Virus record (IMG/VR): IMGVR_UViG_3300037042_004475
Coordinates: 1-30,893 of that record
From: a virus
Length of the DNA: 30,893 nucleotides
Reading direction: 5' to 3' (one strand)
Positions 2,276 to 29,325 of this stretch are shown one piece after another. Below the pieces are notes generated by a model. The model ran no database searches. It had not been told where the DNA came from and was given only the letters and a program-made list of their open reading frames with translations. The position numbers and the translations under genes are program-made. The first letter of the stretch is position 1; each line of letters starts with the position of its first letter.

Positions 2276-2333
2276 ATTATAAGGCATTCTCAGGGGCATT
2301 TGGAGTGTCCTTGTGCCAGTTCTTCAAGTGTCC
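2276..2333 (-). promoter_or_regulatory. Punctuation cassette copy 1 (conserved block, spacer, -10 box)
   Basis: Minus-strand order: the conserved block (2312-2333, GGACACTTGAAG then AACTGGCACA), a 30-nt spacer, TATAAT at 2276-2281, and the ATG of 2253 after 22 nt. The block contains the TGA stop of the upstream 50-aa gene. The spacer of this copy has only a weak GGCA/TGCC pairing, not a strong terminator. The promoter role is inferred from the -10 box and fixed geometry; the block has no resemblance I can see to a T4 MotA box. Confidence 0.65.
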
Positions 2334-2476
2334 CTCTTTTTCCATTTGAGTGGTGGTGGTGTTGTTGGTTTGTTTCGGTTCTCATAAAGATATCCACCCA
2401 ACCAAAAAACACCAGGAGCAACTTCTATTTCTTTTGAGAATAAGAACTTGATAATTTTGAGTAGAGTTTTAGTCAT
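2324..2476 (-). CDS. Hypothetical protein, 50 aa
   Basis: Starts MTKTLLKIIKFLFSKEIEV, has a central VFWLGGYLYENRNK stretch, and ends PPPLKWKKRDT. The N-terminal 15 residues form a basic amphipathic helix that might lie on a membrane surface. The last two codons and the stop (Asp-Thr-TGA) are supplied by the conserved block of the cassette at 2276-2333, as in three other genes. The start overlaps the upstream gene by 8 nt (Asn-Asp-stop). Confidence 0.6.
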   Translation of the reverse strand: MTKTLLKIIKFLFSKEIEVAPGVFWLGGYLYENRNKPTTPPPLKWKKRDT

Positions 2477-2698: not shown

Positions 2699-2755
2699 AT
2701 TATAAGGCATCTGGAGGGTCTTGTGGGTGCCCCTGTGCCAGTTCTTCAAGTGTCC
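2699..2755 (-). promoter_or_regulatory. Punctuation cassette copy 2
   Basis: The block (2734-2755) lies directly after the stop of 2757-2984, with a 29-nt spacer and TATAAT at 2699-2704. The ATG of 2675 follows 23 nt later with no clear Shine-Dalgarno sequence. The spacer is rich in C and A, with at best a short GGCA/TGCC stem. Confidence 0.65.
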
Positions 2756-2756
2756 C

Positions 2757-2984
2757 TCACAATACCTCACAAAGCCCTTGAATACTATACCTTGTGATAA
2801 ATCCTTTGGTTGTGTATGTTTTCTTATAATTCTCAATAAACTCTTTTGCTTCTTCTTTGGTTTCAAATGTGCCGAAGTTGCGATAGAACAACTCACCAGT
2901 ATAAGTTCTCACAATCCACTTATGAGAATGTTCTGGGTAAGTATCGTTTTCTTCTATGTGTTTGTAGTATTCTTCACGGTTCAT
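2757..2984 (-). CDS. Hypothetical protein, 75 aa
   Basis: I start at MNREEYYKHIEEND because AGGAGG lies nine bases upstream; the earlier in-frame ATG lies inside that ribosome site. Residues 22-59 (KWIVRTYTGELF, then FGTFETKEEAKEFIENYKK) suggest two beta strands followed by a helix. It overlaps the 57-aa gene upstream by 11 nt. Function unknown. Confidence 0.6.
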   Translation of the reverse strand: MNREEYYKHIEENDTYPEHSHKWIVRTYTGELFYRNFGTFETKEEAKEFIENYKKTYTTKGFITRYSIQGLCEVL

Positions 2985-5074: not shown

Positions 5075-5232
5075 TCTTTCTCTCCTAAAGTCACAAGTGG
5101 TTGAATGTCGTTCAGTTCATCATACAGCATCTTGGCAAACCCATAGTGAGGTCTTATGCCAGTTTCAATACTGGTTGAAGTGGCAACCGCCCACATAATA
5201 TCAAGTTGTAGTTTATCTGGAAGAGGTTTCAT
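5071..5232 (-). CDS. Hypothetical protein, 53 aa
   Basis: Starts MKPLPDKLQLDIMWAVATST and contains HYGFAKMLYDELNDIQPL. Probably all-helical. Its last codons (Leu-Gly-Glu-Lys-Glu) also form the AGGAGA ribosome site of the next gene. It begins with an ATGA overlap. No family recognised. Confidence 0.55.
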   Translation of the reverse strand: MKPLPDKLQLDIMWAVATSTSIETGIRPHYGFAKMLYDELNDIQPLVTLGEKE

Positions 5233-5883: not shown

Positions 5884-6107
5884 CTACCCAACCTCAGTTT
5901 TCTTTCAGGTGACAGATAAGGATTATATGGGTCATCATAAGGATAGATGTATTCCGTCATCCAACCCCAAGATAACCCCTCCCAGAAGTCACCATATCCA
6001 TACTTATGCCCATCATTATAACAATCAAGGATATAAGGAAGGTGACGGAAACCCTCCACGAACCATTCCCACTTACTCATATTATAATAGGTGTCTCTGT
6101 CAGTCAT
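5877..6107 (-). CDS. Trp/Tyr-rich protein, 76 aa (intact copy)
   Basis: Starts MTDRDTYYNMSKWEWFVEG. Over a quarter of the residues are Trp, Tyr or Phe (HKYGYGDFWEGLSWGW, EYIYPYDDPYNPY). A GAGG ribosome site lies just upstream. The first 119 bp recur at the left edge of the window with three changes. It could be a small structural or membrane-surface protein; nothing identifies it. Confidence 0.6.
   Translation of the reverse strand: MTDRDTYYNMSKWEWFVEGFRHLPYILDCYNDGHKYGYGDFWEGLSWGWMTEYIYPYDDPYNPYLSPERKLRLGRW
5989..6107. repeat. Direct repeat, partner of positions 1-119
   Basis: This 119-bp stretch aligns end to end with 1-119, with three mismatches (97%) and no gap. Similarity stops right after the start codon on the upstream side and runs off the window on the other. 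The repeat covers the 5' half of a gene, so it is a gene duplication rather than an intergenic element. Confidence 0.9.
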
Positions 6108-6113
6108 AAGTCC

Positions 6114-6747: not shown

Positions 6748-6804
6748 ATTATAGGGCATCCACAGGGGAATTGGTGGGGTCTTGTGCCAATTCGTCAGGT
6801 GTCC
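6748..6804 (-). promoter_or_regulatory. Punctuation cassette copy 3
   Basis: The block (6783-6804) carries small changes (GACACCTGACG, then AATTGGCACA) and begins at the TAG of the GIY-YIG endonuclease gene. TATAAT is at 6748-6753 after a 29-nt spacer; the ATG is 23 nt further on. About 50 bp covering leader, -10 and spacer are nearly identical to copy 8 at 9653-9709. Confidence 0.65.
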
Positions 6805-7487
6805 TAATCTATTCGTTTTCTTTTAGAAGTGTCTATACCTCTTGCTTTTTGATATTTTGTTAAGTTTCCTGGATTAGTAATGAAACCAGTTTCAAGACAT
6901 TCCCACTTTTGGGAATTTGTATTTTTACCTCCTTTGCTACTATGTTTGCTATGTTGTTCGGGTGTTCTTGAAAAAATACCAATATTATTTTCTCTACACT
7001 CTAATCCACTTTTTCTCCCAATTTCAATCTTTTCCTCCATAGTCATTCCGTGTATCCCAACTTTCATTTTATAACTTATACTTCCTCCCAATTTTCCTGC
7101 TTCACTAAATTGTCCCTTTGTATAACCAAAGAAACTAATTTTGTTTTTTCTATTGTTTTCTTGAACCTTTCTTCCAGTTTCTTTTGCTTGTTCTATTGGA
7201 ACATAAAACTTTGTGGAAGTTTGGTATGCTCTATTAACAAAGTGTTGGTTCTCAACTACTTTATAATAGTGTTGTAGAATAATCTCATCAACATATGCTT
7301 CTTCTCTCGTGGCATAATCACTTTTGAGAATAATCTTTTGAGTTGGTTTGAATGCTTTGTCTTTGAATGAACCAAAGTATTTTATATCTTCTTCTGGAAG
7401 ACATTTACATCCTCTACTTCCAATGTATCCTTTACCCCATTTTTCATAAGAATAATAGGTATAGTAATACTCTTTTGGAGTTTCCAT
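6804..7487 (-). CDS. GIY-YIG homing endonuclease, 227 aa
   Basis: Cuts DNA at a specific site to spread its own gene into phages that lack it. The N-terminal nuclease module has the GIY-YIG variant YYTYYS (residues 8-13) and GYIGSR (20-25, with the catalytic Arg25), then EEAYVDEII (62-70) holding the likely catalytic Glu. Residues about 120-175 carry Gly-rich NUMOD3-like DNA-binding repeats (GKLGGS, IGRKSG). It is free-standing: no intron or interrupted host gene is seen. Its leader has an inverted repeat, a terminator and a late promoter (see 7497-7578). The stop codon adjoins a punctuation cassette. Confidence 0.85.
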   Translation of the reverse strand: METPKEYYYTYYSYEKWGKGYIGSRGCKCLPEEDIKYFGSFKDKAFKPTQKIILKSDYATREEAYVDEIILQHYYKVVENQHFVNRAYQTSTKFYVPIEQAKETGRKVQENNRKNKISFFGYTKGQFSEAGKLGGSISYKMKVGIHGMTMEEKIEIGRKSGLECRENNIGIFSRTPEQHSKHSSKGGKNTNSQKWECLETGFITNPGNLTKYQKARGIDTSKRKRID

Positions 7488-7515: not shown

Positions 7516-7523
7516 TATTTATA
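7516..7523 (-). promoter_or_regulatory. T4-type late promoter (TATAAATA), GIY-YIG gene
   Basis: An exact match to the T4/cyanophage late promoter consensus, 28 nt upstream of the ATG at 7487 and inside the loop of the 7497-7578 inverted repeat. Recognised in T4 by the gp55 late sigma factor with gp45. Confidence 0.7.
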
Positions 7524-7527
7524 CAGG

Positions 7528-7548
7528 AAAAGCACCCGAAAGTGCTTT
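7528..7548 (-). terminator. Terminator-like hairpin before the late promoter
   Basis: Minus strand: AAAGCAC, loop TTTCGG, GTGCTTT, then a short T run. The TTCGG-type loop is shared with the hairpin at 10564-10585. It would stop read-through before the endonuclease gene. Confidence 0.6.
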
Positions 7549-8006: not shown

Positions 8007-8063
8007 ATTATAGGGCATCCACATGGGGATTGGTGGGGTCTTGTGCCAGTTCTTCGGGTGTCA
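8007..8063 (-). promoter_or_regulatory. Punctuation cassette copy 4
   Basis: The block (8042-8063) follows the TGA of 8064-8414, with a 29-nt spacer and TATAAT at 8007-8012. The next ATG is 22 nt on, preceded by AGGAAC. Presence of the cassette shows that the open frame running through it from 8110 is not the true start. Confidence 0.65.
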
Positions 8064-8414
8064 TCAAACCCAAGTTCTAACATTTGCTTTTGGATGTTTC
8101 TTACAAGCATCCAATATTTTTTCTACAAAAGGAACAAAGTCCTTATAAGTTCCCCAACCATTAGAAGCATCAAACTGCTTAAAGTGTTCTGGATCAGATT
8201 TGAGGTTCTTCAATCCTTCTTCAAGAAGTGGAATTAACATCCCAGCAGTTGGATTTTCCCAAAGTTCATAAGGATGCCAAAGAGGGTAATAAATGCTTGC
8301 TTCCTCTGCCATCTTATTCAAGTTATGAGTAATATTTGCAGAATACAACTCAACCTTATGAGGTTCAGGTGCTCCCGTATCCAGTTCCATTTCAAGGTAG
8401 AAATCAAGAGACAT
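8064..8414 (-). CDS. Conserved phage/bacterial hypothetical, 116 aa
   Basis: Starts MSLDFYLEMELDTGAPEPHK, followed by ELYSANITHNLNKMAEEASI, LWHPYELW and FDASNGWGTYKDFVPFVEKI, with a C-terminal CKKHPKANV. I know this pattern (DTGxPEP, NITHN, NGWG, HP) from a family widespread in phages and actinobacteria and annotated as hypothetical. The conserved His, Asn and Asp residues suggest a binding or catalytic role, but none has been assigned to my knowledge. It is the first gene after the cassette at 8441-8497. Confidence 0.75.
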   Translation of the reverse strand: MSLDFYLEMELDTGAPEPHKVELYSANITHNLNKMAEEASIYYPLWHPYELWENPTAGMLIPLLEEGLKNLKSDPEHFKQFDASNGWGTYKDFVPFVEKILDACKKHPKANVRTWV

Positions 8415-8440: not shown

Positions 8441-8497
8441 ATTATAAGGCAAAACCACCTCCTTGTGGGAAGTGGTGTGCCAGTTCTTCAAGTGTCC
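8441..8497 (-). promoter_or_regulatory. Punctuation cassette copy 5 with strong hairpin
   Basis: The block (8476-8497) includes the TGA stop of the upstream gene (Asp-Thr-stop). The 29-nt spacer is a hairpin, ACCACTTCC then loop CACAA then GGAGGTGGT (one G-T wobble), ending in TTTT just before TATAAT at 8441-8446. Terminator and promoter share the same bases. The whole segment is nearly identical to copy 7 at 9343-9399. Confidence 0.7.
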
Positions 8498-8748
8498 TCG
8501 ACAATCAAGCAATAACGGCACTGGAAAGAAAATACATCTTTGTCGTGTGTTTTCTTCACACCATTTTCTTCCCAAGAATACACCACTTCATACCAAGGGT
8601 CTGTGCTTCCATAAGAATTGAGACCTTCAACAGTCACAACATAACCACAAGAACTAATCCAACGAGAACCAATTTGGATTTCGTGTGGTTTGAAGAAATG
8701 TCCGACTATGAATTTGTGTCCGTTTTGGATTTTAGTTTCGTAGTCCAT
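8488..8748 (-). CDS. Hypothetical protein, 86 aa
   Basis: Starts MDYETKIQNGHKFIVGHFF. The core (GSRWISSCGYVVTVEGL, DPWYEVVYSWEENGVKK) looks like a small beta barrel of SH3 or KOW type, with Cys at residues 35, 78 and 81. The final Asp-Thr-stop lies within the conserved block of the following cassette. Function unknown. Confidence 0.6.
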   Translation of the reverse strand: MDYETKIQNGHKFIVGHFFKPHEIQIGSRWISSCGYVVTVEGLNSYGSTDPWYEVVYSWEENGVKKTHDKDVFSFQCRYCLIVEDT

Positions 8749-8773
8749 CAGGTTTCTTTGTGTGTATGAGTGT

Positions 8774-8830
8774 ATTATAGGACATCCTGTGAGGTTTTGG
8801 AGTGCTCTTGTGCCAGTTTAAGAAGTGGTC
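8774..8830 (-). promoter_or_regulatory. Punctuation cassette copy 6
   Basis: The block variant (GACCACTTCTTA, then AACTGGCACA at 8809-8830) starts at the TAG of the 162-aa gene. There is a 29-nt spacer, TATAAT at 8774-8779, and the ATG after 25 nt. The spacer sequence is unlike other copies and has no good hairpin, while its length is unchanged. Confidence 0.65.
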
Positions 8831-9318
8831 TATGTGTTACGAATAGCAGGAGTTTCGCAGTTTTCAAGTGCCCATTTCATCCAGAACTCCAACCACATCA
8901 GACGCGGAAGAATAAAATCATATTTGTCTTCATCAGGAGTAATCCAAAGTTGGAGGTTTTTATCCCATTTAGAATAACCAGAAAATCCAGGAAGTTTGGT
9001 TGCCTTTTCCTTATATCTCTCAAGAGCACCATAAACTTCGTGATAATGCTCTTGAGTAATCGGTTTACATCCAGGATGGTTATAAATCAATCCTTCCCAC
9101 TCTTTGTAAAACAAATCATAAAGACCAGTTTCCCTACAAAAATCCGCCCATCCACTATAAGAAGGAGACCGTCTATTTGAGTTTCCAGTCATTTCATCAT
9201 TAGGAAATGTAGGTGCATCATCACTGCAAGCACCTTCAACTACCCAACAAGCATAAAGTTCCCCATCTTCTTTAGAAAATTCGGGAACTGCGTTTCCAAT
9301 TGTGATTGAGTAACCCAT
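8830..9318 (-). CDS. Hypothetical protein, 162 aa
   Basis: I use MGYSITIGNAVPEFSKEDGE, which lies 24 nt after the -10 box of the cassette at 9343-9399; the frame upstream of it runs through the promoter and is not real. Segments include ACWVVEGACSDDAPTFPND, YSGWADFCRETGLYDLFYKE, HPGCKPITQEHYHEV and a C-terminal LMWLEFWMKWALENC. Similar proteins occur in other phages and some bacteria as unannotated genes. The HPGC and HYHEV residues could bind metal, but I cannot name a function. Confidence 0.65.
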   Translation of the reverse strand: MGYSITIGNAVPEFSKEDGELYACWVVEGACSDDAPTFPNDEMTGNSNRRSPSYSGWADFCRETGLYDLFYKEWEGLIYNHPGCKPITQEHYHEVYGALERYKEKATKLPGFSGYSKWDKNLQLWITPDEDKYDFILPRLMWLEFWMKWALENCETPAIRNT

Positions 9319-9342
9319 AATGTAGTGTTTGTGTATGAGTGT

Positions 9343-9399
9343 ATTATAAGGCAAAACCACCTCCTTGTGGGAAGTGGTGTGCCAGTTATTCAAGTGTCC
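9343..9399 (-). promoter_or_regulatory. Punctuation cassette copy 7 with strong hairpin
   Basis: The block (9378-9399) holds the upstream TGA (Gln-Asp-Thr-stop) and reads ATAACT rather than AGAACT. The hairpin in the spacer (arms 9356-9364 and 9370-9378) is the same as in copy 5, with TTTT before TATAAT at 9343-9348. The ATG at 9318 is 24 nt downstream. Confidence 0.7.
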
Positions 9400-9629
9400 T
9401 GCGAGTATGCCTCAAGAATAGCACGGGCAACAGCAATTGCTACATCCTTATGTGCGATACTAATATCCTCACGAGCACCACCATCACAAGAAGTAATGAA
9501 GACACCAGAATTATCAACTATCAGTTCTACTCTGTGAGTTTGATTTTCTGCCTCATCAGTAAGTTCAAAGACATCAATCTTGCTACGAACAACATCGCAA
9601 CCGGGAAGTTTTGTGTAGAAATTAGACAT
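9390..9629 (-). CDS. Hypothetical protein, 79 aa
   Basis: Starts MSNFYTKLPGCDVVRSKIDV, then beta-rich VELIVDNSGVFITSCDG and a C-terminal helix AIAVARAILEAYSQDT. First gene after the cassette at 9653-9709, with a 23-nt leader and no clear ribosome site. No family recognised. Confidence 0.6.
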   Translation of the reverse strand: MSNFYTKLPGCDVVRSKIDVFELTDEAENQTHRVELIVDNSGVFITSCDGGAREDISIAHKDVAIAVARAILEAYSQDT

Positions 9630-9652
9630 AAGGTTTCTGTGTGTACGAGTGT

Positions 9653-9709
9653 ATTATAGGGCATCCACAGGGGAATTGGTGGGGTCTTGTGCCAGTTCTT
9701 CAAGTGGTT
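9653..9709 (-). promoter_or_regulatory. Punctuation cassette copy 8
   Basis: The block (9688-9709) supplies the TGA stop of the HNH endonuclease gene (Thr-Thr-stop). There is a 29-nt spacer and TATAAT at 9653-9658. It is almost the same as copy 3, which also follows a homing endonuclease gene. Confidence 0.65.
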
Positions 9710-10527
9710 TGTTTGAGTTTTCTACCAAGAACCCAACCTTCACCAGGACACTCTACTGCTCTTTTAGAGTTTCCGCATCCATCGTTCCACCATTTTTTTC
9801 CTTTCTTCGCTTCACTCTGTTTTCTTTTGGTTTCTTCAGAATGCGTTTTTCCATACATAGGATGATTTTCACCGGCATATTTACCTTTTTTTGATTTACC
9901 TATTTTTCTTTTTGTTTCTTCGGAAAGTAATTGTCCTTTTCTTGCTTTACTTATTTTTCTTTTCGTTTCTTCGGAGCGTGATTTACCATAATTGCAATGA
10001 TTTTCGCCCCTTACTGATTCGCTTTGTTTCCTTTTAGATTCTTCTGAACGTTTTTTACCCTTTTTCACTTCACTCTGTTTTCTTTTGGTTTCGGTAGAAT
10101 GATATTTTCCATAAAAAGGATTATCTTTTCCTCTTTTACCATAATTAGGATTATTTTTACCACTGCTTGCTTCACTTAATTTTCTTCTATGTTCTTCACC
10201 TACAATTCTATTTTTTAAATAAAGTGATAATCTACTTTTAGAACTTTCATAAAGATAAGAATTATATTTTTCACTGCGATTTTTCATAAGAACAAAAGCA
10301 GTAGTCATCTTTATAGTTCTTTTATCTTCTATTCCATATCTTTGAATACAAATCTTTTCTAATAATGCGTGTGATATATAATGTTCTCTTCCAGTAAGAA
10401 CTACTATTCTACTATTCTTTCCAAAGATACTTTTTGGAAATGTATGATGCTTTTCTGTATAACCTTCAGGAAGAATTCTATTCTCTGCTTTCCTGACGAT
10501 ATTACAATAAATCTTTAGATAATTCAT
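9700..10527 (-). CDS. HNH homing endonuclease with NUMOD3 repeats, 275 aa
   Basis: A free-standing mobile nuclease. The HNH core is at residues 25-53 (EKHHTFPKSIFG, then LTGREHYISH), supplying His27, His28, His49 and His53. Residues 115-245 carry about six NUMOD3-type DNA-binding repeats (NPNYGK, SEETKRKIS and variants). The C-terminal KWWNDGCGN segment is typical of this class. The gene lies between a late promoter plus terminator leader (10535-10617) and a punctuation cassette that provides its stop codon. Confidence 0.88.
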   Translation of the reverse strand: MNYLKIYCNIVRKAENRILPEGYTEKHHTFPKSIFGKNSRIVVLTGREHYISHALLEKICIQRYGIEDKRTIKMTTAFVLMKNRSEKYNSYLYESSKSRLSLYLKNRIVGEEHRRKLSEASSGKNNPNYGKRGKDNPFYGKYHSTETKRKQSEVKKGKKRSEESKRKQSESVRGENHCNYGKSRSEETKRKISKARKGQLLSEETKRKIGKSKKGKYAGENHPMYGKTHSEETKRKQSEAKKGKKWWNDGCGNSKRAVECPGEGWVLGRKLKQTT

Positions 10528-10552
10528 TTCTATTCTACAAGAACGGCATTAT

Positions 10553-10560
10553 TATTTATA
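10553..10560 (-). promoter_or_regulatory. T4-type late promoter (TATAAATA), HNH gene
   Basis: Exact consensus, 25 nt upstream of the HNH start and inside the loop of the inverted repeat. It comes right after the terminator hairpin at 10564-10585. Confidence 0.7.
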
Positions 10561-10563
10561 ATA

Positions 10564-10585
10564 GAAAAGGTGCCCGAAAGCACCT
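10564..10585 (-). terminator. Terminator-like hairpin in the HNH leader
   Basis: Minus strand: AGGTGC, loop TTTCGG, GCACCT, then TTTT. The six-base-pair GC-rich stem uses the same loop as at 7528-7548. Confidence 0.65.
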
Positions 10586-10624
10586 AATCTGTCTGTAGAG
10601 AATTGCCGTTCCTATAGACACTTT

Positions 10625-10632
10625 TATTTATG
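10625..10632 (-). promoter_or_regulatory. Outer late-promoter-like box (CATAAATA)
   Basis: Lies 7 nt beyond the stop of 10640-10888 and outside the outer repeat arm. It shares the string ATAAATAAAAGTG with the equivalent box at 28108-28115, which supports common descent of the two leaders. Confidence 0.45.
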
Positions 10633-10639
10633 CTTTAAG

Positions 10640-10888
10640 TCACAAGTCTTTAAAACTTTCTAATGCATTTTTAATAAAGAGTATGGAATTATAGTATTCC
10701 TCTCCGTCTTGACCTCCCATTACAATCGCCGCCAACTCTTCCAGAGCAAGTTTGATTTTTTCGTCTTTTGTGAGTTCCTCAAAGGTTTTGTTGGCAAGTT
10801 CCTCTCTTTCCATTTCTTTTACTGCATCAAGAACTTTATTCAAGTCTTCATCAGAAATATTACCAATAATTACTTTGTTTTCAGTCAT
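10640..10888 (-). CDS. Hypothetical helical protein, 82 aa
   Basis: Starts MTENKVIIGNISDEDLNKVL and is then almost wholly helical and charged (DAVKEMEREELANKTFEEL, KIKLALEELAAIVMGGQDG). Last gene before the HNH insertion point. The ATG overlaps the upstream stop. Function unknown. Confidence 0.6.
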   Translation of the reverse strand: MTENKVIIGNISDEDLNKVLDAVKEMEREELANKTFEELTKDEKIKLALEELAAIVMGGQDGEEYYNSILFIKNALESFKDL

Positions 10889-11226
10889 TCTTCTAATACC
10901 TCAATAATTCCTAAAATGTCTCTAACATTCACAACCAAAATCCCGTGGTCTCCATCAATATTGAAGTTATCATATCCACACTGTTCTACAAGTGCTCTGA
11001 AAGCAGAAGCAATCACCAGTTCTCTATCACCCTTTTGAGGGCGTAAAGTGTGCTCCATCGTTGCTTCTACAATCTTCTGTGATTGCTGTTGTGCTTTCAG
11101 TTTGCGGAGTTTCTGCTTTCCTTGTGCGGTGAGATAGTTTTTTGATTTTCTCAATTCTTCTATCTCTTGTGGTGATAAGTTCAACCAAGGAGCATTATCA
11201 GGTTCTGGTAGATTAAATTCAGTCAT
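10885..11226 (-). CDS. Hypothetical protein, 113 aa
   Basis: Starts MTEFNLPEPDNAPWLNLSPQ. A basic helical middle (KNYLTAQGKQKLRKLKAQQQ) is followed by a second domain (RELVIASAFRALVEQCGYD, then ILVVNVRDILGIIEVL). The N-terminal part could bind nucleic acid by charge, but no motif supports that. It overlaps its upstream gene by 8 nt. Confidence 0.6.
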   Translation of the reverse strand: MTEFNLPEPDNAPWLNLSPQEIEELRKSKNYLTAQGKQKLRKLKAQQQSQKIVEATMEHTLRPQKGDRELVIASAFRALVEQCGYDNFNIDGDHGILVVNVRDILGIIEVLEE

Positions 11227-11506
11227 TTGCTTTTACTCCGCAGTAAATATCAGGATAAGTGCCCGGATTTGTTTGTGGTTTTCCGGGAATAAGAGTAATA
11301 CCGGGATTACAAGGAATAGTAGTAGTAGGAGTGAGAGTACCGTAATGTGGAGGAGTAAAAACTAATGGAGATTTACTCAAATACTCTACAATTACATCAT
11401 AGTCCCAAGGGTCTCCACCATTAGATTTCCCAAAATCAATTGCTTCCTCTCTTGTGGGAAATGATGCTACGAATTTGTTATGATGGTAAAGTGAATAAAC
11501 TTTCAT
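11219..11506 (-). CDS. Hypothetical protein, 95 aa
   Basis: The N-terminal 40 residues (MKVYSLYHHNKFVASFPTRE, EAIDFGKSNG) form a beta-hairpin plus helix pattern, as in many small phage proteins. The C-terminal half is Pro/Thr-rich and probably extended (TLTPTTTIPCNPGITLIPG). It ends Lys-Ala-Asn-Asp in the 8-nt overlap module. Function unknown. Confidence 0.6.
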   Translation of the reverse strand: MKVYSLYHHNKFVASFPTREEAIDFGKSNGGDPWDYDVIVEYLSKSPLVFTPPHYGTLTPTTTIPCNPGITLIPGKPQTNPGTYPDIYCGVKAND

Positions 11507-11880
11507 AGTCTAAACTGATTGTAAAGATAAACTTGTGCTTGTCCTTTTGTTTGGACTATAATATTGAGATTAAGTTTAAGAATAATACCTCTTAAAGCAT
11601 GTTCGTGTTGTTTAGCAATTATCCAGATATGAGGATAATGGTCTATAAACTCCACACTCTTACCGGGATTTTCAAGTGCTTCTGCGATTGCCTTCATATA
11701 AAGAGCAGTAGTTCTTCCGCTGCTTCTGGTTGTTAGTTCTTCGTATTTTTTAGTAAGGTTATCTGATTTTTCCATTAGTGGTAATGGGACTTTATCATAG
11801 TCAATAAAATCACTTACTTCTTCAATTAATGTGTAAAGTTCTTGTGCGAGTTGTTTGTAGTCAGTCATTTTTTCAGTCAT
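11503..11880 (-). CDS. TGRT-motif protein, 125 aa, paralogue of 4076-4405
   Basis: Two start codons are possible (MTEK-MTDYKQLAQELYTL). The first sits in an 8-nt overlap with the upstream gene; the second is 12 nt later. An N-terminal helical region of about 45 residues, absent from the paralogue, precedes the shared part: SSGRTTALYMKAIAEAL, then NPGKSVEFIDHYP and a hydrophobic strand. The shared domain is about 65 residues. Function unknown. Confidence 0.6.
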   Translation of the reverse strand: MTEKMTDYKQLAQELYTLIEEVSDFIDYDKVPLPLMEKSDNLTKKYEELTTRSSGRTTALYMKAIAEALENPGKSVEFIDHYPHIWIIAKQHEHALRGIILKLNLNIIVQTKGQAQVYLYNQFRL

Positions 11881-12160
11881 TTTTCATTTCTTTAGGTTGA
11901 GTGTAAAACAATTCATCTCTCCAATTGCGACCTGCAAAATCTACACAAATTCCAAATTTTGAAATAGTAAATAAAATTGAAATTAATCTTCCGTTTCCAG
12001 AACTGAATTGAAAATAAGGAAGTTCAGTCCATTTTGAATACTCTCCAATATCAAATGATACTTGTAAGAGTGAATATTTTTTTCCTGTCAAAAGAGTAAA
12101 ATTATATTCTTTTCCGTAGTCATCTCTTAAACCATAATTAAAAAGTTTCATACTTAACAT
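11873..12160 (-). CDS. Conserved phage hypothetical, 95 aa
   Basis: From MLSMKLFNYGLRDDYGKEYN it continues FTLLTGKKYSLLQVSFDIGE and LPYFQFSSGNGRLISILFTI, a mostly beta pattern that I have seen in unannotated phage proteins. The ATG at 12160 has GGA five bases upstream; an ATG at 12151 is also possible. It ends Lys-Asn-Asp-stop, overlapping the next gene by 8 nt. Confidence 0.6.
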   Translation of the reverse strand: MLSMKLFNYGLRDDYGKEYNFTLLTGKKYSLLQVSFDIGEYSKWTELPYFQFSSGNGRLISILFTISKFGICVDFAGRNWRDELFYTQPKEMKND

Positions 12161-12170
12161 TATCCATCAT

Positions 12171-12548
12171 TTAAAGTAGTTTTAGGTGTCCTGTAATACT
12201 TTGTAATTCTTCTTTTGTTGCTGGACCAATCGCACAGCAAGTCAAAGTTGGAACTCCATCAAACTCAGTGAGACCAGAATCTTCAATCAAAGCACAGATA
12301 AATCCAGAAAGTTTTGCTTTTCCATAAACGAGTAGAAGTTCATCCTCCGAATCAACAGAGACACAAATTTTTGTAAATTTATCAGACAACCAGGATTTTA
12401 CTCGATAATCTTGTTGATTTTCAAGAACTGCTTTCATTGAAGCATGAGCACCTTGAGCAACCATCTTTCCTTTTCTCATATTCAAATCCTTGCGGATTAC
12501 AATCACTTGTTGTAGTTTAGTCATCGAATTCTGTGATCGTTCAGTCAT
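12171..12548 (-). CDS. pth2: Peptidyl-tRNA hydrolase 2 (Pth2 family), 125 aa
   Basis: Releases tRNA from peptidyl-tRNA that has dropped off ribosomes. The whole Pth2 fold is visible: VIVIRKDLNMRKGKMVAQGA followed by HAS (residues 16-38), KICVSVDSEDELLLVYGKA, then GLTEFDGVPTLTCCAIGPA and a C-terminal TGHLKLL. Length is normal for archaeal or eukaryotic type Pth2 (about 115-125 aa); bacteria normally use the unrelated Pth1, so a phage Pth2 is notable. The start could also be MTKLQQ, eight codons later, as the first residues are not conserved. The start overlaps the upstream membrane-protein gene (ATGA). By recycling tRNA or clearing stalled peptides, it may help translation during infection (inference). 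Confidence 0.9.
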   Translation of the reverse strand: MTERSQNSMTKLQQVIVIRKDLNMRKGKMVAQGAHASMKAVLENQQDYRVKSWLSDKFTKICVSVDSEDELLLVYGKAKLSGFICALIEDSGLTEFDGVPTLTCCAIGPATKEELQSITGHLKLL

Positions 12549-12751
12549 CTTTCAAAACCAAATAAAGAACTTCTTTTCTTTTCGAAACATTTTTTCAAAA
12601 TAAACAGAGAAATAAGACTAAAAAACGCAAATCCTAAAGCATTAACAAAACCTACATTAAAGATTAAAACTCCAAATAAAGTAACAATAAACAACATTTG
12701 CGATTCTTCCTTTTTTTGTTTTTTAAACAGAATTAGTCTCCGAGTATTCAT
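12545..12751 (-). CDS. Small membrane protein, 68 aa
   Basis: A basic N-terminus (MNTRRLILFKKQKKEES) precedes two hydrophobic segments at about residues 19-35 and 37-52 and a basic tail (KKCFEKKRSSLFGFER). Two starts both have good ribosome sites: AAGGAG before 12751, and AGGAAG before an ATG at 12697 that would give a 50-aa form with both helices. Function unknown. Confidence 0.6.
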   Translation of the reverse strand: MNTRRLILFKKQKKEESQMLFIVTLFGVLIFNVGFVNALGFAFFSLISLFILKKCFEKKRSSLFGFER

Positions 12752-12772
12752 TCAGACAACTCCTTAATACCC

Positions 12773-12955
12773 CTAGTCATCGAATTGATTTTCAAATGTA
12801 AATACTTCACTTATAGAGAGCATAATTGCATCAGTGATTGCATCAACGATTACACCTTCTGAAGGATTTTCATTGTGTTTAAATGCTCTTCTATAACCCA
12901 AAAGAGCACCAGATTCTACTGCTCTCTCAAGTATCACATAATAATTTGGTTTCAT
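12773..12955 (-). CDS. Conserved cyanophage-type hypothetical, 60 aa
   Basis: Starts MKPNYYVILERAVESGALLG, then YRRAFKHNENPSEGVIVDAI and an AIMLSISEVF helix. I recall this helical pattern (AVE-G---GYRRA-KH---P) from small proteins in marine cyanophages with no known function. The start overlaps the upstream stop (ATGA). Confidence 0.65.
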   Translation of the reverse strand: MKPNYYVILERAVESGALLGYRRAFKHNENPSEGVIVDAITDAIMLSISEVFTFENQFDD

Positions 12956-13431
12956 TTGTCCTCTAACTTATAAAATTCTTTAAAACTTTCAGCATTTTTT
13001 AAAATATCAACAGTAATTTCATTTTGAGAGCAAAGAGCATCCATTTCCTCATCAGTATATTGAGGATTATCGGGATTTAATGCTCTTGAAAGTTTTGCTT
13101 TCAGGTCACGAATTTCTGCTTCCAACTTATACATTTCCTTGTTGTAATCTTCAATCATTACTAAATCATATTCATCGGCAGTTTTCTTCATATCTTCATT
13201 ACTACGCATATCGTTGAAGACAAGAGACAGAGCACCCTTATCAATACCTTGATGATTATGCCCCATCGAAAGCATAAACTTACCAAAGAGATTAAAGAGT
13301 TGAATTGAGTTTAAGTCTTGTGCTGGAACTTCAAAAGTAATGTTCTCTTCAGGGGGAATTTCATCATCATAGATACCACCTTTATGGTCCCACTTGGAAG
13401 TATATTTGAGAGTAACAGTTGCTTCGTACAT
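12952..13431 (-). CDS. Hypothetical protein with coiled coil, 159 aa
   Basis: The N-terminal half is probably beta-rich (MYEATVTLKYTSKWDHKGG, ENITFEVPAQDL). Residues about 95-118 (DYNKEMYKLEAEIRDLKAKL) form a likely coiled coil. First gene after the cassette at 13455-13512, so it may head the run of coupled genes that includes pth2. No family recognised. Confidence 0.65.
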   Translation of the reverse strand: MYEATVTLKYTSKWDHKGGIYDDEIPPEENITFEVPAQDLNSIQLFNLFGKFMLSMGHNHQGIDKGALSLVFNDMRSNEDMKKTADEYDLVMIEDYNKEMYKLEAEIRDLKAKLSRALNPDNPQYTDEEMDALCSQNEITVDILKNAESFKEFYKLEDK

Positions 13432-13454
13432 AATCAGGTTTTTTGTATACTCAT

Positions 13455-13512
13455 ACTATAAAACCCCCTTGAGGAAAAATCAAGGGGGTATGTGCCAGTT
13501 TGTGAAGTGGTT
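13455..13512 (-). promoter_or_regulatory. Punctuation cassette copy 9: promoter fused to a strong terminator
   Basis: The block variant (AACCACTTCACA, then AACTGGCACA at 13491-13512), a 30-nt spacer and TATAGT at 13455-13460. The spacer is a 10-bp hairpin (ACCCCCTTGA with TCAAGGGGGT) ending in TTT. TTGATT inside it lies exactly 17 nt before TATAGT, so the hairpin also contains a good sigma70-type -35. The ATG is 23 nt on. Confidence 0.75.
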
Positions 13513-13518
13513 TTGAAA

Positions 13519-22277: not shown

Positions 22278-22306
22278 ATTATAGCAATAAAAAAAGGAGG
22301 AGTCAA
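22278..22306 (-). promoter_or_regulatory. Sigma70-type promoter before the Sm-like genes and gp43
   Basis: TTGACT (22301-22306), a 17-nt spacer and TATAAT (22278-22283) on the minus strand. The ATG at 22254 follows 23 nt later, the same leader length as after the punctuation cassettes. The -35 box and spacer overlap the 3' arm and T run of the hairpin at 22291-22329. Confidence 0.8.
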
Positions 22307-22329
22307 CCTAGATTTGCCAGGTGCTCCTC
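22291..22329 (-). terminator. Possible terminator overlapping a promoter
   Basis: Minus strand: GAGGAG (22324-22329), a 21-nt loop, CTCCTC (22297-22302), then seven T. The six-pair stem with a long loop is weaker than other terminators here. It would end the hsp20 and 56-aa gene RNA where the next promoter begins. Confidence 0.55.
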
Positions 22330-26478: not shown

Positions 26479-26484
26479 ATTATA
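26479..26484 (-). promoter_or_regulatory. -10 box (TATAAT) at the end of a terminator
   Basis: TATAAT lies directly after the T run of the terminator at 26484-26514 and 22 nt before the ATG at 26456, the same geometry as the punctuation cassettes. The conserved block is absent at the expected place, and there is no good -35, so strength is uncertain. Confidence 0.5.
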
Positions 26485-26514
26485 AAAAAAGAGAAAGAAT
26501 AGGTTCTTTCTCTT
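26484..26514 (-). terminator. Strong intrinsic terminator
   Basis: Minus strand: AAGAGAAAGAA, loop CCTA, TTCTTTCTCTT, then a T run. An 11-bp perfect stem, 54 nt after the stop of 26569-26796. It should separate the upstream small genes from the clamp operon. Confidence 0.85.
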
Positions 26515-28042: not shown

Positions 28043-28050
28043 TATTTATA
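28043..28050 (-). promoter_or_regulatory. T4-type late promoter (TATAAATA), second GIY-YIG gene
   Basis: Exact consensus 23 nt upstream of the ATG at 28019, inside the inverted-repeat loop and just after the terminator T run. Confidence 0.75.
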
Positions 28051-28052
28051 TT

Positions 28053-28076
28053 AAAAGGAGAGTATTTCTACTCTCC
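28053..28076 (-). terminator. Intrinsic terminator after cobS
   Basis: Minus strand: GGAGAGTA, loop GAAA, TACTCTCC, then TTTT. An 8-bp perfect stem with a stable GNRA tetraloop. Confidence 0.85.
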
Positions 28077-28106
28077 CACCCGAAGATTGCAGTCAGTCAG
28101 GCACTT

Positions 28107-29249: not shown

Positions 29250-29306
29250 AGTATAGTACAAAAAAAGGTGCCTCAGGGGCACCTTGGGACAGTTTGGAAA
29301 GTGGTT
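29250..29306 (-). promoter_or_regulatory. Punctuation cassette copy 10: terminator-promoter before cobS
   Basis: The most divergent block (AACCACTTTCCA, then AACTGTCCCA at 29285-29306) yet the same 29-nt spacing to TATACT at 29250-29255. The spacer is a strong terminator (AAGGTGCC, loop CCTGA, GGCACCTT, seven T). The ATG of the cobS-like gene is 33 nt on, longer than in other copies. It is about 16 kb from the nearest other copy. Confidence 0.7.
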
Positions 29307-29325
29307 CAGTTATCACTCACAGACA

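Follow-up and report, generated by a model that had tools for sequence, protein, structure and literature searches.

A dyad-headed cassette of T4-type cyanophages that reads as a promoter with an optional terminator in its spacer

In T4-type phages (RB49, phi1, T4 and KVP40 relatives), composite promoter-terminator motifs named promoter-early stem-loops (PeSLs) mediate shuffling, according to the account of Arbiol 2010 and Comeau 2014 given in PMC4503421. Direct reading of the RB49 genome (NC_005066) reveals about a dozen copies of the form TTGAC-AGGGGATCGGCGATCCCCT-TATACT, in which the hairpin lies inside the promoter. At 117386, 123271 and 134526 (minus strand), for example, near-identical hairpins exactly fill the spacer from TTGACA to TATAAT or TATACT, and in other RB49 copies a terminator lies 35-55 nt upstream of the -10 box. 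Here, we compare these elements with a repeated cassette in a 30.9-kb viral fragment, IMG/VR virus record IMGVR_UViG_3300037042_004475 (30,893 nt, the whole of which is referred to as the window), whose closest relatives are T4-type cyanophages, e.g. Synechococcus phage S-SRM01. The analysis was based on sequence alone. The cassette is real, widespread and fixed in its geometry, and is predicted to act as a promoter with an optional built-in terminator.

The window contains ten cassettes, all on the minus strand, and each shows the same order: a dyad block (e.g. GGACACTTGAAGAACTGGCACA), a spacer of 29 or 30 nt, a -10 box that reads TATAAT, TATACT or TATAGT, a leader, and an ATG. Common to all ten are the 24-bp dyad TGTGnCA[C/G]TTnnnnAA[C/G]TGnCACA, the 29-30 nt spacer and the -10 box. 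The ten cassettes are listed here, followed by two dyad-free overlaps of a predicted terminator and a promoter-like sequence (ORF, open reading frame).

2276..2335, minus strand: cassette 1; dyad 2312-2335, 30-nt spacer 2282-2311 with no stable hairpin, -10 box TATAAT 2276-2281, ATG 2253.
2699..2757, minus strand: cassette 2; dyad 2734-2757, spacer 2705-2733 with a weak fold, -10 box 2699-2704, ATG 2675.
6748..6806, minus strand: cassette 3; dyad 6783-6806, spacer 6754-6782 with a weak fold, -10 box 6748-6753, ATG 6724.
8007..8065, minus strand: cassette 4; dyad 8042-8065, spacer 8013-8041 with a weak fold, -10 box 8007-8012, ATG 7984.
8441..8499, minus strand: cassette 5; dyad 8476-8499, which includes the TGA stop of ORF 8488-8748; hairpin spacer 8447-8475, CCACTTCC-CACAA-GGAGGTGG-TTTT; -10 box 8441-8446, ATG 8414.
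8774..8832, minus strand: cassette 6; dyad 8809-8832, spacer 8780-8808 with a weak fold, -10 box 8774-8779, ATG 8748.
9343..9401, minus strand: cassette 7; dyad 9378-9401, which includes the TGA stop of ORF 9390-9629; hairpin spacer 9349-9377, identical in sequence to that of cassette 5; -10 box 9343-9348, ATG 9318.
9653..9711, minus strand: cassette 8; dyad 9688-9711, which includes the TGA stop of homing endonuclease ORF 9700-10527; spacer 9659-9687 with a weak fold, -10 box 9653-9658, ATG 9629.
13455..13514, minus strand: cassette 9; dyad 13491-13514; hairpin spacer 13461-13490, CCCCCTTGA-TTTTTCC-TCAAGGGGG-TTT, with the -35 sequence TTGATT (13478-13483) inside the stem; -10 box TATAGT 13455-13460; predicted to drive ORF 12952-13431.
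29250..29308, minus strand: cassette 10, with a divergent dyad, 29285-29308; hairpin spacer 29256-29284, AAGGTGCC-CCTGA-GGCACCTT-TTTTT; -10 box TATACT 29250-29255; flanked by a phrog_459 peptidase gene and a phrog_249 AAA ATPase gene (start ATG 29216).
22278..22329, minus strand: dyad-free overlap; hairpin ~22297-22329, -35 sequence TTGACT 22301-22306, T-run, -10 box TATAAT 22278-22283.
26479..26514, minus strand: dyad-free overlap; hairpin 26489-26514, T-run, -10-like TATAAT 26479-26484, no -35 sequence.

The original prediction was that hairpins precede the -10 boxes at 8441, 9343, 13455 and 29250, and all four were found, the spacers folding on their own to -11.9, -11.9, -17.2 and -11.3 kcal/mol, respectively. 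The 13455 copy indeed holds TTGATT exactly 17 nt before TATAGT (13483-13455), within the stem. As also proposed, TTGACT and TATAAT at 22278, again 17 nt apart, sit on a hairpin 3' arm and its T-run, and at 26479 TATAAT comes after a stem and T-run. The suggestion that the T-run merges with the -10 box applies at 13455 (and at 26479, outside the cassette family) and fails at 8441 and 9343, where the arrangement is TTTT-GCCT-TATAAT, and at 29250, where it is TTTTTTT-GTAC-TATACT. The sites at 22278 and 26479 have no dyad (scores of -6 and -22) and fall into a different group. Nor is a hairpin spacer the hallmark of the cassette, since six of the ten copies have no stable hairpin (spacer alone -2.7 to -3.9 kcal/mol), and it is the dyad and the fixed spacing that are shared instead. 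Because these six copies have no terminator, and the dyad and -10 box are invariant, the idea that one short segment ends an RNA and starts the next is not true of the cassette as such, although it is the best reading for about one third to two fifths of the cassettes.

Generic scans of the window alone gave, for terminators, 12 against 7.6 +/- 2.5 and 13 against 6.3 +/- 3.1 in shuffled sequence, which is little excess, and for promoters 58 against 60.6 and 74 against 59.6, which is near expectation; the case therefore rests on a family-wide comparison. An Rfam search of the window returned no cassette match up to E = 1. The family counts are based on a sample from exact pattern scans of IMG/VR, in which the loci came partly from patterns requiring a -10 box. 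Among the matches listed, the cassette layout occurs at hundreds of places in IMG/VR contigs, a lower bound, and 870 of the 1017 unique dyads listed have a -10 box 27-32 nt away on one side or both, against a background of 2-3% per side at other distances. The layout is also present in seven sequenced cyanomyophages, S-PM2, S-SRM01, B23, S-CRM01, P-SSM2, ACG-2014f and, as a variant, Syn9. A dyad position matrix built from 317 non-redundant copies was run over isolate genomes that were complete or almost so, and detected 42 sites in S-SRM01, 27 in S-PM2, 59 in B23, 43 in S-CRM01, 30 in P-SSM2, 68 in ACG-2014f and 12 in Syn9, totals in which some places are counted on both strands owing to the near symmetry of the dyad. 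The control genomes T4 and RB49 gave one and zero sites, and the reversed matrix 0-1. In isolates, which were not chosen for a -10 box, such boxes peak 29/30 nt past the dyad (19 of 32 -10 matches at offsets 10-55 in S-SRM01, 17 of 25 in P-SSM2 and 32 of 58 in ACG-2014f), and Syn9 has the variant box TATTCT at an equal distance. The search for the dyad plus TATAAT in 257 Gb of bacterial genomes yielded four matches, none of them cyanobacterial, and no host regulon was found, imperfect host sites being possible. The cassettes are clustered: 31 of the 35 in ACG-2014f (NC_026927) fall within 27222-58277, 14% of the genome, among small hypothetical genes, and those in S-PM2, S-SRM01 and B23 likewise lie between small genes of variable regions. 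The cassette layout is thus not a product of chance.

A -10 box was found on both sides of 91 of the 1017 dyads, therefore one dyad can serve two divergent promoters. The fixed distance, the symmetry and this two-way use would agree with a DNA element to which a dimeric factor binds, positioned around -60 to -42 relative to the expected start. The inner dyad position is complementary in 26% of the IMG/VR loci listed and a C-C or G-G combination in ~74%; the dyad thus prefers two unlike half-sites, with the same inner C/G letter on one strand. Dyads of such type are typical of dimeric repressors, and the bound protein might silence these promoters later rather than activate them; however, the site lies outside the promoter core and the weak -35 sequence of most copies fits activation better, so that we regard a repressor as unlikely. 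A hunt for candidate binders, present in cyanophages and not in T4 or RB49, produced 14 small families, none of which is obviously DNA-binding by eye. The dyad motif was not found in a literature search, whose scope did not extend to the Syn9 transcriptome and PeSL papers, and an earlier description is possible. Two other readings of the conserved block were tried and set aside. The resemblance of TGGCACA to a sigma54 (-24/-12) element was dropped since the spacing does not fit; to our knowledge, cyanobacteria have no sigma54. A protein-coding origin (frame TLEELAQ...DAL*, with the stop within TATAAT) was rejected because spacings of 29 and 30 nt dominate, rather than multiples of three.

With expectations taken from dinucleotide shuffles, 130 of 698 non-redundant spacers among the matches listed reach a fold energy of -12 kcal/mol or lower, whereas 11.5 are expected, an 11-fold excess that is decisive against chance, and 239 reach -8 kcal/mol or lower against 88.5. 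In a smaller, earlier set, 136 of 317 spacers belonged to the hairpin class versus 24 expected. The hairpins take two placements. In the larger class (n = 147), the stem ends at least 5 nt ahead of the -10 box and is followed by a T-run: the 6 nt after the stem contain on average 3.43 T, compared to 2.02 at the same positions in hairpin-free cassettes (maximum of 2.29 in 200 resamplings), and 78 of these hairpins have at least four T there versus 18.7 expected. In the other class, comprising 78 of the 239 hairpins, the stem abuts the -10 box, which is then its sole T-rich tail. Matches to a -35 sequence (at least 4/6 at 16-18 nt) fall in the hairpin 5' arm or loop and are about four to five times as frequent as chance would give (121 of 317 versus 31 expected; hairpin class, 59 of 136 versus 12). 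In an example from ACG-2014f, AGGGGGGTTGGCAAACCCCCTTTTTTGTGC-TATAAT, the loop contains TTGGCA at a distance of exactly 17 nt from the -10 box. The ACG-2014f spacers have either a G-rich 5' arm, which forms the hairpin, or a C-rich 5' arm, which does not, with the loop and the rest kept, as if an arm swap switched terminator strength. Hairpins are depleted at dyads with a -10 box on both sides (18 of 143, versus 125 of 294 one-sided dyads from the same contigs; Fisher p = 8e-11), which is expected if they stop incoming RNA, as none arrives there. The T-run after the stem and the depletion at divergent sites together form a sequence signature suggesting that the hairpin may act as a terminator, and these two features and the -35 sequence within the hairpin favour the reading in which a single segment closes one RNA and opens the next.

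Several observations weigh against this interpretation. The 78 of 239 stems that abut the -10 box lack a separate U-tract, so many may be poor terminators, and ~60% of the copies have no -35 sequence by the 4/6 rule. The fold energies are ViennaRNA values for 37 C without cyanobacterial calibration and show no preference for the RNA strand (96 versus 86). A crude test of ORF direction pointed the same way as the dyad comparison without reaching significance (39% versus 32%, p = 0.17), ORF calling being noisy.

Instead of terminating transcription, the hairpins might chiefly serve the upstream mRNA, whose 3' end they would protect or process. They occur only in the upstream RNA, because the new RNA begins past the -10 box, and many of the stems abut that box without a U-tract, as such a role would allow, but the enrichment of T-runs in the larger hairpin class is a mark of intrinsic termination, and we consider this explanation improbable. 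Equally improbable in our view is a hand-over, whereby the polymerase stays on the DNA after intrinsic termination and restarts at the promoter beneath it. The terminator does lie within the promoter in these cassettes, and in bacteria a polymerase that has terminated at a hairpin can be recycled to the closest promoter (PMC11347151), but such recycling is not known for a cyanobacterial polymerase and hairpin-free cassettes are at least as common. A further view, in which a GC-rich promoter spacer yields the hairpins as a by-product and the cassette is a promoter with an upstream dyad only, is very unlikely. Such an origin would agree with the six window copies and the majority of family copies that keep dyad, spacing and -10 box without a stable hairpin, yet it does not account for the 11-fold excess over shuffles, for T-runs that are specific to hairpin copies, for the depletion at divergent shared dyads, or for the many unrelated hairpin sequences at one position. 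That the dyad is itself an RNA hairpin ending the previous mRNA (e.g. an antitermination or processing site) is hardly credible, for although the repeat is inverted about a 4-nt centre and is transcribed in tandem arrangements, its usually non-complementary inner position (C-C or G-G in about three quarters of copies) disfavours an RNA stem, and both its fixed distance to the -10 box and the 91 two-sided dyads argue for a DNA site.

Gene order breaks about twice as often at cassettes as at cassette-free junctions. When the preceding gene was shared by two contigs (at least 80% identity up to the junction), the next gene was also shared in 91 of 250 cases at cassettes versus 352 of 501 at cassette-free junctions; the pairs lack independence, and cassettes fall at the ends of operons, where synteny is lost more readily in any case, a point against a specific role of the cassette in these breaks. 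When the 8007 copy was compared with a second locus (L032), the upstream 258 nt compared were 100% identical (20-nt bins at 100% for 300 nt) and the sequences were unrelated past the leader. The reverse was seen for the 2699 copy, whose downstream gene is 98.8% identical to that at another locus (L027) with an unrelated upstream gene. Both one-sided junctions resemble those attributed to PeSLs of T4-type phages; neither a recombination product nor a mini-circle was seen. From such junctions we infer that exchange may occur via homologous recombination between cassette copies.

The cassette is probably an intergenic control block of T4-type cyanophages, which would combine a dyad promoter, in some copies a terminator, and a site of gene exchange. 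In this model, a dimeric transcription factor probably binds the 24-bp dyad and aids the host RNA polymerase, the spacer of 29-30 bp leads to a sigma70-type -10 box, and the ATG of the next gene follows 20-35 nt on. In some copies (four of the ten in the window, and about one third to two fifths overall) the spacer would double as the intrinsic terminator of the preceding gene, with the -35 position held by the hairpin 5' arm or loop and the U-tract just ahead of the -10 box, or formed by it, so that the preceding RNA would end within the promoter of the next gene. From the sequence features of the block, the hairpin would terminate transcription, the -10 box would fire and the dyad would be bound by a protein. 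Being repeated with little variation, the block would also be the place at which genes are exchanged, as with the PeSL cassettes of T4-type phages. Whether the Kyanoviridae share a phage-specific promoter class, in which each genome has dozens of scattered genes turned on together by a dyad regulator and a terminator is optional in the promoter core, is in our judgement evenly balanced. If they do, a gene dropped between two cassettes would at once be insulated, expressed and co-regulated.

In water, T4-type cyanophages rank with the most abundant viruses, and most of their numerous small early genes have yet to be explained. A recognizable cassette would provide a way to locate their transcription units, could explain how unrelated small genes slot in and are still expressed, and points to a specific putative regulator. 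In the window, genes are mostly on the minus strand. Those at 1-13 kb are mainly small and unknown, those beyond include replication genes, and there are several homing endonuclease genes. A 125-nt stretch at 1-125 is 96% identical to 5989-6113, a duplicated gene end.

The 'ORFanage' of S-PM2 has been studied before. Its loss was reported to speed plaque growth, and the authors noted a stem-loop at 11369-11391, considered the density of PeSLs insufficient to be of importance, and made no mention of the dyad (PMC4503421). In S-PM2 (NC_006820), cassettes are located at or near this region at 5075, 8572, 9852 and 11346, and the stem-loop at 11369-11391 is the hairpin of a dyad cassette, so the published view of sparse PeSL-like elements would have to be revised. 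Cassette recombination was considered as the source of the S-PM2 deletion ends (5,799 and 15,339, PMC4503421) and discarded, since neither end falls in a cassette.

Other phage promoters offer partial parallels. The late promoter of T4 consists of a TATAAATA -10 sequence alone, which the cassettes do not show; TATAAATA occurs elsewhere, at homing endonuclease genes. Strong hairpins with a T-run leading into a T4-type late promoter TATAAATA were seen in the window at 7516-7547, 10553-10585 and 28043-28077 (minus strand), before homing endonuclease-like or unknown ORFs, and T4 has a similar hairpin-to-TATAAATA arrangement near 125540. The MotA-dependent middle promoters of T4 have a -10 box and an upstream protein-binding element in place of a good -35 sequence, the MotA box being a short site centred near -30. 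The cassette likewise combines a -10 box with an upstream element, but in the cyanophages this is a 24-bp dyad at about -60 to -42. As a model for the possible dyad binder, pMarR of the cyanopodovirus P-SSP7 can be considered, a phage-encoded dimeric factor that touches the alpha subunit of the host polymerase (PMC9692554), although P-SSP7 belongs to a different phage family.

The closest likeness is to the PeSLs, which are also small cassettes of a sigma70-like promoter and a stem-loop that occur in many copies among small genes of variable regions and are linked to shuffling. Four of the ten window copies combine a sigma70-like promoter and a stem-loop in one cassette, and in ACG-2014f, S-PM2, S-SRM01 and B23 many copies lie among small hypothetical genes. 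The sharing of bases by terminator and promoter is not a new principle, because hairpins fill the -35 to -10 spacer in RB49 and PeSLs have been published as composite motifs. The geometry differs, however: whereas the RB49 hairpin exactly fills the stretch from TTGACA to the -10 box, the cyanophage hairpin starts upstream of the -35 sequence, which it holds in its 5' arm or loop, and the stem mostly ends 6-11 nt before the -10 box, often with a U-tract in between. In addition, the cyanophage hairpin is optional, and the 24-bp dyad at a fixed distance is absent from RB49 and T4. What is new here is therefore the shifted geometry, the dyad at a fixed distance and the cyanophage-wide spread, base sharing being already present in RB49.

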